61,811 nucleotides of DNA, from positions 1 through 61,811 of the forward strand of contig JAGQHJ010000006.1 in the NCBI GenBank assembly GCA_020431915.1, read 5' to 3'. Position 1 is the first letter of the stretch. Each line of letters begins with the position of its first letter. The notes beneath the pieces were generated by a model that did not search any database, was not told the origin of the DNA, and worked only from the letters and a program-made list of their open reading frames with translations. The position numbers and the translations under genes were made by a program. This document shows, one piece after another, positions 34,588 to 39,256 of the stretch. The DNA comes from Cyanobacteria bacterium HKST-UBA04 (lineage in GTDB: Bacteria > Cyanobacteriota > Vampirovibrionia > Vampirovibrionales > JAGQHJ01).

Positions 34588-36591
34588 CTAAACAGGCTTC
34601 TGTTTTTGAGGCATGGTTTCCGGCGTTTCTTCTGTCGGTTCAACCGGCTGCCGAGGTGGCGATGCCTGGGCAATCAAACCGGCGCTTTCGCATGAGTAGC
34701 AGGTTAGCAATACCGCCCCATAGCCGCTGAGGTAGGTTGTAAAATCCTGCTTCATGGCTGCTTCGTCCCAGTCGAACCGGCCCCCTGGTGCTGCGTTGTT
34801 AAGGGCAATCGTGCTGGTTTGGGCCCCTTGCCGGAAACGTTCTTCTTTGGGGATACCTGGTTCGGTGCCGGTGGTACACCCGTGGCCAATGACGTACACC
34901 ATGGCTTCGGCGTTACAGTGGCCGTGGGCATCGGTATGCTTGTCGGCAAAGGCTTTCATGTCGGCCAGGGCATGTTTGACCGTATCGGCCGTGGGGTGCT
35001 CGAGAAGGGTAACATCGTCCTCGGCCAGACCACGGCCCTGGTAGGCGTGGGTAATGGCCTGTTTGAACATGGTGGCGTTTAGGCGGAAGCGTTCGTAATC
35101 CGCGCCGTCAAAGCCGTCATGGCCGTTGCCTAATACAATCAACACCTTTCGGGGTACGGTTTGGGCCGGATCCCATAAGTCGGGGGGAAAATCGCTTGAG
35201 GTAATAGGCCAGGCCGTGGTGTACCCAGACACACGGATATTTTCGACAGGGGTGTCGTAGGTTTCGCTGTACCCGAGGCGAACCGGGGCTTGGCGGTTCA
35301 GGCTGGGGTATTCCTGGGCAAAGGGTTGGGGGGTGTCGTCCATCAGGCGGCTGGTTAGCTGGTGGACGAGTCCACTGGCCTGAGTCACCGCTTCCCAATC
35401 CACCTCGTCCTCGTTTTGGTTGTGCCAGTGCGTATCCCAAACCACAATTTCCTGAAACACCGGGGTAATGACGTGGGTGTTGGCCGGCCAGTGCGTTGTA
35501 AGCCTGGGGTCGTTTTTAGCGAGCCGAGGTATTTTGGCCATAACGCTTTCAAACGTTTGCTCGGTCGTGGCGGCATCGGGCAGGGCTGCCAGTTTTTTAT
35601 CGGTCTCGGCCAGCTGTTTGTCGAGCTTGACGATGCGGGCCTTAAGCTTGGCCAGGGGTAACAAGGTGTCGCGTTCGGCTAGGCAATGGTTGTGCGTCAG
35701 TTCGTCAACCGAATATGAGGCCAGCTGGTAGCGGGCATGGAGCTGTTCGGCCATGGACGGGTAGCTGGCTTTCAATTCGGTTTTGTAGGCTCGTTCGGCC
35801 CGTCGCTTCTCTCGGCGGTAACGGGCCTGCTCTATTTTTAACGCCATCAGGTCCTGGTAGGCCTCGTTGGCCGCTTCTACCGGTGCAAGCCGGGCCGAAA
35901 AATTATAGGGGGCATCGGCCTCGGGTAAAAAGCCGGGGGGTTCGATGGGGCCATGGGTGCTGGCAAAAGGGTTTGCCCAAGGCAAAAACCCGCCGGCGCC
36001 GGGTTCTCGGAAAAACAGGTTGTCCGTCGTGTCGTCCGAGCCGAAGGGGGTAAAAAGGGGTGGGGGAGTATCGTGGCCAAACCGGCCGAAGGGCCCCAGG
36101 TGGTCTTGGGCCGTGTTGACGTGGGTGGGGTAGGTGGGCTCCCAGAGGGTGAGTCCGCGTTCGACGGTACCGGATCGCTGGAAGGCGTTCTGGTAATAGA
36201 CCCCGGTGGTATAGGCGATGAGGGCCAGCAGCAGTGGTTGTATCCACGAAGGGGCCTGGGTACCGGGCATGGGGGGCATGCTTGCTTTGGGCGCCGCGTA
36301 TCGTTTTTTGGATCGGTGGCGGTCTGCAGAGTGGGGCGAGGCTGTTTTGTGGCGGGTTTGTTTTAGCTGCTTGCGCAGCAATCGACGAAACTGTTGCCGG
36401 GCTTTTTGTTGTTTGCGCTGGTTGCGTTTTAGACCAAAAGCCACTGTGTCGACTGTGCCGTTGGTCGGCCCGGCAAGCGGAAGGCTTGTAAGCGCGTGGG
36501 TATGGCCGTTGTGTTTGCGTTGCGGTGCCGGCAAACGCAACGTCATGCCTGTACCCATGCCTAGCGTGTGTTGAAGTGATTGAATATCCAT
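34588..36591 (-). CDS. Caspase-like (clan CD) peptidase candidate
   Basis: A 667-residue protein. The N-terminal part is basic and low-complexity, with one hydrophobic segment near residues 113-130 (SWIQPLLLALIAYTTGVYY). A long charged helical region follows (about 230-330). The C-terminal 190 residues look like a clan CD cysteine peptidase: strand KVLIVLGNGHDGFDGADYERF, then the His-Gly dyad in VIGHGCTTG (H570), then the Cys strand AVLLTCYSCESAG (C634 with S-C-x-S), the order found in legumain, caspase and metacaspase folds. It would cut proteins after specific residues. The upstream ATG has no clear ribosome-binding site. It is convergent with the RTX gene (18 bp between stops). Activity is inferred from motifs only. 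Confidence 0.6.
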   Translation of the reverse strand: MDIQSLQHTLGMGTGMTLRLPAPQRKHNGHTHALTSLPLAGPTNGTVDTVAFGLKRNQRKQQKARQQFRRLLRKQLKQTRHKTASPHSADRHRSKKRYAAPKASMPPMPGTQAPSWIQPLLLALIAYTTGVYYQNAFQRSGTVERGLTLWEPTYPTHVNTAQDHLGPFGRFGHDTPPPLFTPFGSDDTTDNLFFREPGAGGFLPWANPFASTHGPIEPPGFLPEADAPYNFSARLAPVEAANEAYQDLMALKIEQARYRREKRRAERAYKTELKASYPSMAEQLHARYQLASYSVDELTHNHCLAERDTLLPLAKLKARIVKLDKQLAETDKKLAALPDAATTEQTFESVMAKIPRLAKNDPRLTTHWPANTHVITPVFQEIVVWDTHWHNQNEDEVDWEAVTQASGLVHQLTSRLMDDTPQPFAQEYPSLNRQAPVRLGYSETYDTPVENIRVSGYTTAWPITSSDFPPDLWDPAQTVPRKVLIVLGNGHDGFDGADYERFRLNATMFKQAITHAYQGRGLAEDDVTLLEHPTADTVKHALADMKAFADKHTDAHGHCNAEAMVYVIGHGCTTGTEPGIPKEERFRQGAQTSTIALNNAAPGGRFDWDEAAMKQDFTTYLSGYGAVLLTCYSCESAGLIAQASPPRQPVEPTEETPETMPQKQKPV

Positions 36592-36960: not shown

Positions 36961-37773
36961 TTAAAAACCGCGATCGCCGGCCAACACCGAACCGAGGTGG
37001 CCCAGCACACTGCCTTCGCCCTGGGTTTGCGTACTGCGAATTTGGTCGGGGGGAATGGCGGCAAAAACGTTGCTGGCCAACCGGCTGAAAGGCAGCGATT
37101 GGAGCCAGACGGTGCCGGGGCCTTCGAGGGTAGCCAGAAACAACCCTTCCCCGCCGAAGAGCATGGTTTTAATGCCCTTGGCCAGGGTAATATCGTAGGA
37201 GACACTCCCCGTCAGTGCCACCAGACAGCCGGTGTCCACTTTAATCTGCTCGCCGGCCGCCAGTTCGCGCCGTACGATGGTGCCACCGGCATGGGCAAAA
37301 GCCAGGCCGTCGCCTACCAGTTTTTGAAGGATAAACCCTTCCCCGCCAAAGAAGCCGGCCCCCAGGCGCTTGGTAAAGCCCAGGCTGATGCCCACCCCCT
37401 TGGCGGCGCACAGAAACGAATTTTTTTGGCAGAGAATTTCGCCCCCCATGGTGCTTAGGTCCAGGGGAATGATTTTACCGGGGAAGGCGGCGGCAAACGA
37501 CACGGTTTGCTTGCCCTGGCCCTGGTTGGTAAAGATGGTCATAAACAGCCGTTCGCCGGTCAGCAGGCGTTTGCCGGCACCCAGCAGCTTGCTGCCGAGC
37601 CCCTCGTTTTCCTGGCTACCGTCGCCGAAAATGGTGTCCATGTGGATACCTGCGTCCATCATCATCATGGTTCCGGCTTCGGCCACCACGCTTTCCTGCG
37701 GATCCAATTCGATGGTGACCAGCTGCATGTCGTCGCCGAGCAACTGGTAATCGATGTCATGACTGTTTCCCAT
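36961..37773 (-). CDS. AIM24/TIGR00266-family protein
   Basis: A 270-residue protein of the AIM24 (TIGR00266) family, a conserved beta-rich cytosolic protein of uncertain role, with mitochondrial relatives in yeast. Typical sequence is seen: QLVTIELDPQESVVAEAGTMMMM, GAGKRLLTGERLFMTIFTN, GKIIPLDLS and GGEGLFLATLEGPGTVWLQS. The longer frame from 37815 is possible, but the ATG at 37773 begins the conserved part (MGNSHDIDYQLLG); AGGAG lies 14 bases upstream, rather far. The gene is co-directional with the peptidase-like gene but separated by 369 bp with a palindrome. Confidence 0.88.
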   Translation of the reverse strand: MGNSHDIDYQLLGDDMQLVTIELDPQESVVAEAGTMMMMDAGIHMDTIFGDGSQENEGLGSKLLGAGKRLLTGERLFMTIFTNQGQGKQTVSFAAAFPGKIIPLDLSTMGGEILCQKNSFLCAAKGVGISLGFTKRLGAGFFGGEGFILQKLVGDGLAFAHAGGTIVRRELAAGEQIKVDTGCLVALTGSVSYDITLAKGIKTMLFGGEGLFLATLEGPGTVWLQSLPFSRLASNVFAAIPPDQIRSTQTQGEGSVLGHLGSVLAGDRGF

Positions 37774-37985
37774 ACGGCGGTGTTTCACTCCTGTGTTTGG
37801 TGTTGGTAAGCCCATACAGGCCCACTATACCCCAAGGCCGTGGGTGGTTATACCTGGAATCTGTGTGACGTCGTACAAGAGCGTTTAGGGTATTTACTCT
37901 GTACCCACCAGCTTCATGGCTATTTTGCAATCAAGCTAGAAATAATATTACAATAGTATCCTAAGGTATTTTTTGGTGATTACAA

Positions 37986-39038
37986 ATGTCAAGAAATATT
38001 AAACCCGAACACAGCAGAGAAAGAGTTAATAGAGCGGGCCATAATGTTAGGAGTGGTTCGCTAACTTCTGAGGATATTGATGTAATAGAGAATTGGAGAG
38101 CGGCGCATAACAAAATTTTAAATGACTGGCAGTCTAATTTACGCAACAGATGTAAGAAAAATAAAAAGATAACTTTTGCCCAACGATTGAAACGTAGAAA
38201 TACTATTTTTGATAAATTAACTCGACAGCCCGAAATGCAATTATCAAGAATGCATGATATAGCAGGCTGTAGGCTTATATTTCCAGATATAGCCTCTCTT
38301 CATGAGTATAGAAATAGCTTACATGAATCTAGAATGAAACATGTTCTTAGAAAAGCAGATGAAGCTCCTTATCCCTATGATTACATGGAACATCCTCACC
38401 CAGATAATAGTGGGTATAGAGGGATACATGATGTTTTTAAATATTGTGCAAGGCCTGGCCGATCTCAGGAGTGGAATAACTTGCTTGTAGAGATTCAGTA
38501 CCGTACGAGTAGTCAGCACGCTTGGGCTACTGCTGTAGAAATTGCCGGCCATATTACGGGTAATTATTCAAAATTTGATCAAGGTGATGAACAGCAGAAA
38601 GAGTTTTTTAGGCTTACTAGCGAAATAATAGCTCGGGCACATGAGGGTATGACGTCTTGTTACCCTACAGCAACTAATAGAGAGATAATTCAGAGGTTTA
38701 CGAGTTTAGAACAAGAGCTACACCTCTTAATGAGGTTGAAAAGTTTAAAAATTGCTGGTGATCTAGAGAACTTTACCAAGCAGAATGTAATTTTACTATT
38801 GTCTAATGTTGAAGATGAAAGAGGGCAGCTAACTTTTACAGCTTATTCTTATGAATATTTACCAGAGGCGACGAATAAATATTTTGAACTAGAAAAAAAA
38901 TATGGGGAAAAATATGATATCGTTCTTGTTCGTGCGCCATCTAAAGAAAGCTTAATGCATGCCTACAAAAACTATTTTTCTGACTCACAAGACTTTGATC
39001 GTTTGGTTATTGAGGGATTGGAGCTTCTCAAAAAGTAA
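37986..39038 (+). CDS. RelA/SpoT-domain (alarmone synthetase-like) protein on an AT-rich island
   Basis: A 350-residue protein with the RelA/SpoT nucleotidyltransferase motifs in order: basic RLKRRNTIFDKL, HDIAGCRLIFPD, the G-loop NSGYRGIH whose Tyr stacks on the guanine in (p)ppGpp synthetases, and LVEIQYRTSSQHAWA. No HD hydrolase domain precedes it, so it would be a synthetase only. About 170 residues follow the catalytic core. Known small synthetases of this kind include housekeeping SAS proteins, toxSAS toxins and CapRel-type fused toxin-antitoxins; the C-terminal extension fits the last group in length, but I cannot align it. The gene is visibly AT-rich against G+C-rich neighbours and lies 28 bp from a duplicated tRNA-Val end, strong signs of horizontal transfer. 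Confidence 0.85.
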   Translation: MSRNIKPEHSRERVNRAGHNVRSGSLTSEDIDVIENWRAAHNKILNDWQSNLRNRCKKNKKITFAQRLKRRNTIFDKLTRQPEMQLSRMHDIAGCRLIFPDIASLHEYRNSLHESRMKHVLRKADEAPYPYDYMEHPHPDNSGYRGIHDVFKYCARPGRSQEWNNLLVEIQYRTSSQHAWATAVEIAGHITGNYSKFDQGDEQQKEFFRLTSEIIARAHEGMTSCYPTATNREIIQRFTSLEQELHLLMRLKSLKIAGDLENFTKQNVILLLSNVEDERGQLTFTAYSYEYLPEATNKYFELEKKYGEKYDIVLVRAPSKESLMHAYKNYFSDSQDFDRLVIEGLELLKK

Positions 39039-39066
39039 TAATTGATTGTTTGGTCAGAAATCAAGA

Positions 39067-39105
39067 AATGGTGGGCGTTGAGGGACTTGAACCCCCGGCA
39101 TCCTC
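39067..39105 (-). repeat. Duplicated 3' end of tRNA-Val (attachment-site-like)
   Basis: A 39-bp sequence exactly repeats 39179-39217, which covers the last 37 nt of the tRNA including its encoded CCA plus two flanking bases. The offset is 112 bp and the orientation is the same. A 3'-end tRNA duplication is the usual trace of tyrosine-recombinase integration. Confidence 0.85.
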
Positions 39106-39123
39106 ATGGGCAAATAGGGAAGG

Positions 39124-39143
39124 GCGGCGCTTTTGAGCGCCGC
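39124..39143 (-). terminator. GC-rich hairpin downstream of tRNA-Val
   Basis: GCGGCGC (39124-39130) pairs with GCGCCGC (39137-39143) around TTTTGA. Read from the minus strand it is followed by a pyrimidine-rich tail (CCTTCCCTATTTG). It is one of two consecutive hairpins after the tRNA. Confidence 0.45.
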
Positions 39144-39154
39144 TGAAGTAATTG

Positions 39155-39176
39155 TTCTCTCCTTCAAAGGAGAGAA
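39155..39176 (-). terminator. Hairpin immediately downstream of tRNA-Val
   Basis: TTCTCTCCTT (39155-39164) and AAGGAGAGAA (39167-39176) are perfect complements with a 2-bp centre, four bases beyond the tRNA 3' end. It may help to end or process the tRNA transcript. Confidence 0.4.
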
Positions 39177-39180
39177 GGAA

Positions 39181-39256
39181 TGGTGGGCGTTGAGGGACTT
39201 GAACCCCCGGCATCCTCCTTGTAAGGGAGGCGCTCTACCAACTGAGCTAAACGCCC
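39181..39256 (-). tRNA. tRNA-Val (anticodon TAC)
   Basis: The minus strand gives a 76-nt cloverleaf: acceptor arm starting GGGCGTT, D-arm GCTCAGTTGGTAGAGC, anticodon stem CCTCC/GGAGG with loop CTTACAA (anticodon TAC, reading GUA/GUG-type Val codons), variable loop, T-arm with GGTTCAAGTCC, and an encoded CCA at the 3' end. Its 3' half is repeated 112 bp downstream (separate entry). Confidence 0.95.

Follow-up and report, generated by a model that had tools for sequence, protein, structure and literature searches.

The closest described relative of the protein analysed here is CapRel(SJ46) from Salmonella phage SJ46, whose structure is available as 7ztb (PMC11782079). Its C-terminal strand-strand-helix-strand fold has been published as the CapRel pseudo-zinc-finger, and mutations at the interface of the protein cause constitutive toxicity (PMC9712102). 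Among the triggers published for CapRel proteins are capsid proteins (PMC9712102), another phage protein, unrelated to these (PMC11578894), and one that works together with FtsZ (PMC13423816). Across the toxSAS enzymes, neutralisation at the donor site through a YXXY motif goes with targeting of tRNA, and neutralisation at the acceptor site goes with synthesis of (pp)pApp (PMC11782079). Here we analyse a gene in a 61,811-nt stretch of DNA from Cyanobacteria bacterium HKST-UBA04 (the window), which very probably encodes a monocistronic CapRel, consisting of an N-terminal toxSYNTH domain and a C-terminal pseudo-zinc-finger antitoxin and sensor, that would pyrophosphorylate tRNA upon phage triggering; the gene was acquired horizontally and lies at a recombination-prone tRNA-Val locus.

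A first-pass annotation of the window had placed an AT-rich RelA/SpoT gene at 37816-39256. The gene does lie there; the open reading frame itself takes up only part of that span (Table 1), the rest being upstream gap and tRNA. Its low G+C content relative to its neighbours, also pointed out at that stage, is borne out by comparison with 36 other ORFs of the window that are 200 aa or longer, both overall (0.367 versus 0.582 +/- 0.028, z = -7.8) and at GC3 (0.293 versus 0.693 +/- 0.049, z = -8.2), and the AT-rich block comprises the gene and about 100 bp upstream of it. A sigma-70-like promoter ahead of the gene is possible, the candidate being a weak one from a search that returned five such sites where 3.5 are expected by chance. 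The neighbours are an AIM24 gene and, past the tRNA-Val gene, a 5-FTHF cyclo-ligase gene. Neither a small antitoxin-like gene next to the CapRel gene, as already stated in the first-pass annotation, nor an integrase or any other mobile gene among the flanking genes was found. The ten neighbours at 27-43 kb form no defence island and give only partial, domain-sharing matches to defence genes (MzaA, RmrA HTH, CARF HTH and NUDIX). A 667-aa protein encoded nearby (34588-36591, minus strand) has no Pfam or PADLOC match; by eye, its C-terminal VIGHG ... CYSCESAG has the look of a caspase/gingipain-type peptidase.

Table 1 Features of the CapRel and tRNA-Val locus in window coordinates.
Feature	Position	Strand	Basis
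AIM24 gene, neighbour of the CapRel gene	36961-37815	-	
Sigma-70-like promoter candidate (weak), TTGCAA-18-TACAAT, 5' of the CapRel gene	37925-37954	+	
Putative CapRel-type fused toxin-antitoxin gene, 350 aa	37986-39038	+	PADLOC PDC-S33, PDB 7ztb/9erv, SJ46 gene and Foldseek matches
N-terminal toxSYNTH (pyrophosphokinase) part, residues 28-218	38067-38639	+	Pfam RelA_SpoT, alignment A3, SJ46 mapping
C-terminal beta-beta-alpha-beta unit, residues 267-316	38784-38933	+	AlphaFold2 secondary structure, full-length 7ztb match
YXXY neutralisation switch, YKNYF, residues 327-331	38964-38978	+	Alignments; motif role from PMC9712102
Exact 39-bp copy of the tRNA-Val 3' half, GAGGATGCC...CCACCATT	39067-39105	-	
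Interval between the two tRNA 3' halves, 75 bp, two hairpins	39106-39180	.	
Intact tRNA-Val(TAC), 3' end toward the CapRel gene	39181-39256	-	ARAGORN

The first-pass annotation had described a synthetase without an HD domain and with about 170 extra C-terminal residues, and had proposed an HMM search of the RelA_SpoT and CapRel families as a check. RelA_SpoT, at residues 66-182 (E 2.9e-12), is the sole Pfam domain above cutoff; no Pfam match to an HD hydrolase domain was found, and about 168 residues extend beyond the RelA_SpoT domain, in agreement with the earlier count. Matches of greater length come from other sources: PADLOC PDC-S33, the phage-defence candidate model PDLC04999, covers residues 5-342 (E 1.6e-100), PHROG 4773 likewise matches over the full length, the best PDB matches 9erv and 7ztb cover residues 6-341 (E 5.7e-26), and the product of the RelA/SpoT-family (CapRel) gene of phage SJ46 is 27.8% identical over 97% of the protein. 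Phrann gp29 aligns with residues 4-248.

Structure prediction of the C-terminal part, another check proposed at the outset, points the same way. The AlphaFold2 model, built on an input alignment of 47 relatives (mean pLDDT 89.9, pTM 0.86), orders the chain as synthetase domain, linking helices, strand-strand-helix-strand and a long C-terminal helix, so that residues 267-316 are predicted to match the CapRel pseudo-zinc-finger (antitoxin and sensor) domain and, by AlphaFold2 and Foldseek, this domain and the anchor helices share one chain with the synthetase. The top Foldseek matches are three CapRel chains, aligned over 360 columns that span the whole chain; below them come canonical small alarmone synthetases, which match the N-terminal part only. 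A TM-score of 0.68 and an rmsd of 9.5 Å to the open CapRel crystal suggest that the two domains are placed differently in the model and in the open crystal form, or that their arrangement is uncertain. Taken at the level of sequence and modelled fold, these matches support the window protein as a full-length homologue of CapRel(SJ46), in line with the fused toxin-antitoxin suggested earlier.

The counter-case named in the first-pass annotation, a housekeeping small alarmone synthetase, here with an unrelated C-terminal extension, would equally show RelA_SpoT without HD, and canonical structures do match its N-terminal half. We nevertheless regard it as scarcely credible: the score against the canonical-SAS equivalog NF053588 is 31.1 bits, far below the cutoff of 320 bits, the C-terminal part aligns lengthwise with CapRel, the distribution is patchy and foreign-looking, and the genome, in which the CapRel gene is present as a single copy, also encodes a distinct long RSH (763-aa open frame).

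Residue mapping extends the homology to the active site and to the switch. By alignment A2, the adenine-coordinating R79 and R116 of SJ46 CapRel correspond to R67 and R96, the G-loop tyrosine Y155 to Y144, and Y352 and Y355 to Y327 and Y330, so that the YXXY neutralisation motif is present as Y327-K-N-Y330. The synthetase motifs that were judged intact in the first reading (R67, D91, R96, Y144 and E169) are indeed all kept, giving a toxSYNTH domain that lacks the HD hydrolase and retains its catalytic and donor-site residues. Among the SJ46 interface residues that give constitutive toxicity when mutated, A77, V338, L339 and A351 are retained as A65, V313, L314 and A326, and A341 is replaced by R316; L280 and L307 of SJ46 fall in alignment gaps and lack a counterpart. 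Across the 48 sequences of alignment A3, all of which match PDC-S33 (window protein included), R67, D91, R96, Y144 and E169 are invariant, as are V313, N329, Y330 and F331. Residue 327 (window 38964-38966) is F in 36 of the 48 and Y in the other 12; the switch motif of the clade is thus better given as [FY]xNYF and is mostly FXXY. Mean pairwise identity among the 48 is 0.58 in toxSYNTH, 0.55 in the switch and 0.39 in the sensor-like unit, the low last value being in line with the published view of the pseudo-zinc-finger as the variable, phage-facing part.

The donor-site motif also bears on the chemistry of the enzyme. A fused toxSAS of CapRel architecture might instead make a toxic nucleotide, (pp)pApp or (p)ppGpp, and leave tRNA unmodified, given that the donor-site residues are common to all toxSAS and SAS enzymes and that identity to the SJ46 protein is so low. 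With a donor-site YXXY motif in the window protein we consider this very unlikely, although, at less than 30% identity, the protein could depart from SJ46 CapRel in its trigger and in its substrate (tRNA or nucleotide).

By analogy with the CapRel studies, a tRNA-pyrophosphorylating CapRel in the window would rest with its YKNY segment occluding the ATP donor site. Binding of a phage protein to the variable C-terminal domain would free the active site and open the enzyme, which would then move pyrophosphate from ATP onto the 3' CCA ends of tRNAs; the pyrophosphorylated tRNAs would halt translation, and infection would be aborted with failure of phage production. Toxicity, tRNA pyrophosphorylation and phage triggering are accordingly all attributes that we infer from the studied homologues. 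Which protein would act as trigger is not predictable, because the published triggers vary and because the window protein has nothing aligned with the two leucines on which activation of SJ46 CapRel by Gp57 depends.

The distribution of the gene argues for a foreign origin. Full-length CapRel matches occur in four of the 382 genomes of the class, the window genome being one; the other three are order-mates whose proteins are 26-30% identical, and a strict threshold leaves three matching genomes among the 386 of the phylum, again including the window genome. CapRel is absent from the genomes of the same family. The closest relative, at 53% identity, is encoded by an alphaproteobacterial MAG, and the loosely supported tree group also holds a Gastranaerophilales MAG and two more alphaproteobacterial MAGs. 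With its nearest kin alphaproteobacterial, the CapRels of order-mates distant and family genomes devoid of the gene, sequence comparison supports horizontal acquisition, and composition, patchy distribution and tree position together point to a foreign source. The first-pass annotation had allowed that the same gene, with native composition, might turn up at this site in all related genomes; its absence from the family and a z of about -8 speak otherwise. Composition alone cannot date the transfer, because the clade as a whole tends to low G+C: across 80 related loci the CapRel gene averages 11.6 points of G+C under its flanks, lying more than 5 points below them in 81%, and low G+C thus marks the CapRel family as much as the window transfer. 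A scan of viral contigs gave no match with the single CapRel protein and many matches with the alignment. In the Gastranaerophilales MAG (L132:277-3250), the related CapRel lies immediately after two genes, one of them cytosine-methyltransferase-like, which, named by eye from sequence alone, are a probable restriction-modification system, i.e. a defence cluster.

The tRNA-Val locus next to the gene carries the duplication reported by the first-pass annotation. The exact 39-bp copy, which comprises the tRNA-Val 3' half plus two bases, sits between the CapRel stop codon (28 bp off) and the tRNA-Val gene; the repeat as reported is 43 bp at 98%, with a start-to-start spacing of 112 bp. An exact repeat of 39 bp is much longer than chance allows. 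An element that inserts at a tRNA 3' end comes to lie between the intact tRNA on one side and a copy on the other. Here the copy and the intact tRNA bracket 75 bp, with the CapRel gene outside; no third tRNA copy was found in the window, the far side of the CapRel gene included, and the 75-bp interval has no meaningful match elsewhere in the window genome or in four relatives. The tRNA-targeted integration scar proposed earlier therefore holds in part: the duplication is real and a link to integration only plausible, and the duplication does not enclose the CapRel gene and is accompanied by no integrase.

Related genomes show what else befalls this site. In G003, of the same family (G003:C33, L109:7018-7310, L110:8520-8565), tRNA-Val(TAC) is interrupted at the anticodon loop, just ahead of where the window copy begins, by a 42.7-kb prophage that encodes a T7-like terminase and tail fibre as well as two tyrosine integrases; the prophage supplies a complete tRNA-Val of its own next to the junction, apparently in place of the gene it disrupts. 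G002 (about 265 bp, L108:7680-8130) and G015 (about 1.1 kb, L113:8015-9531) carry tandem duplications that begin within tRNA-Val and take in its 3' half together with downstream DNA. The G015 duplication unit includes a pilin-like gene, one of several similar genes arranged consecutively. Related genera keep the genes upstream of tRNA-Val (5-FTHF ligase and an HTH protein) and differ in those downstream of it; AIM24 is located elsewhere in relatives, so that an exact empty site is not definable. One relative with a prophage and two with tandem duplications of the 3' half mark tRNA-Val as a recombination-prone site across the order. A collapsed insertion and a local rearrangement could each account for the window scar, and neither is tied to CapRel.

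We give nearly an even chance to the view that CapRel came as cargo of a tRNA-Val-integrating element, the 39-bp copy being a remnant of that or a later insertion. The G003 prophage provides a precedent at the same tRNA. Five related loci have a tRNA no more than 1 kb from the CapRel gene, and in every one its 3' end points toward that gene (at 61, 73, 348, 376 and 847 bp), a hint that, small as the numbers are, links the scar to the gene. At L121, the nearest relative, CapRel directly follows a gene that reads as guaA, a common integration site. Against cargo delivery stand the position of CapRel outside the repeats, the missing second att copy past the gene, the missing integrase and the G002 and G015 duplications, which yield similar repeats without any element. 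A search for tRNA 3'-end repeats at the other CapRel loci found none. The G002 and G015 duplications favour reading the copy as the trace of a local tandem duplication or of recombination that had nothing to do with CapRel, which would have arrived otherwise; to this we assign a chance slightly short of one half. Against it, a plain tandem duplication would repeat the post-tRNA sequence after the copy, and past the copy the window sequence does not repeat that found past the intact tRNA. An improbable but more general conjecture is that PDC-S33 CapRels are a minimal defence cargo that the integrases of other elements move in trans, and that in unrelated bacteria they repeatedly settle as single genes directly behind the 3' ends of tRNA genes or guaA, the window tRNA-Val scar being one docking site.

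The fused CapRel family is already known, and the addition of a member in a distant host, a genome remote from the enterobacteria whose CapRels have been studied to date, is well supported. In most members of its clade the switch reads FXXY and not YXXY, and the low identity of the new protein makes it useful for testing the generality of sensing and tRNA modification in the CapRel family. The locus also illustrates how one tRNA-Val gene has been hit repeatedly by phage integration and duplication within a single bacterial order; the scar is typical of the locus, and a link between it and the arrival of CapRel is only plausible.

Compared with the described systems, the window protein shares with CapRel(SJ46) (7ztb, 9erv; PMC9712102) the domain order, the toxSYNTH residues, the ATP-coordinating arginines, the G-loop tyrosine, the YXXY switch and the C-terminal beta-beta-alpha-beta unit with its helix, and both are single genes without a separate antitoxin. 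It differs in being only 28% identical, in its shorter C-terminal loops, in having gaps at the Gp57-activation positions, and in being encoded by a solitary chromosomal gene in no recognisable prophage. PADLOC PDC-S33, which matches it, is a candidate label only, and a search of the accessible literature found no paper naming PDC-S33. The split toxSAS systems (Phrann gp29/gp30 and FaRel2/ATfaRel2) have toxSYNTH and donor-site YXXY neutralisation in common with it (PMC11782079), but their antitoxin is a separate gene, whereas that of the window protein is fused. The canonical small alarmone synthetases RelQ and RelP resemble its N-terminal part in their synthetase fold and, unlike the window protein, are without an antitoxin-like C-terminal domain.
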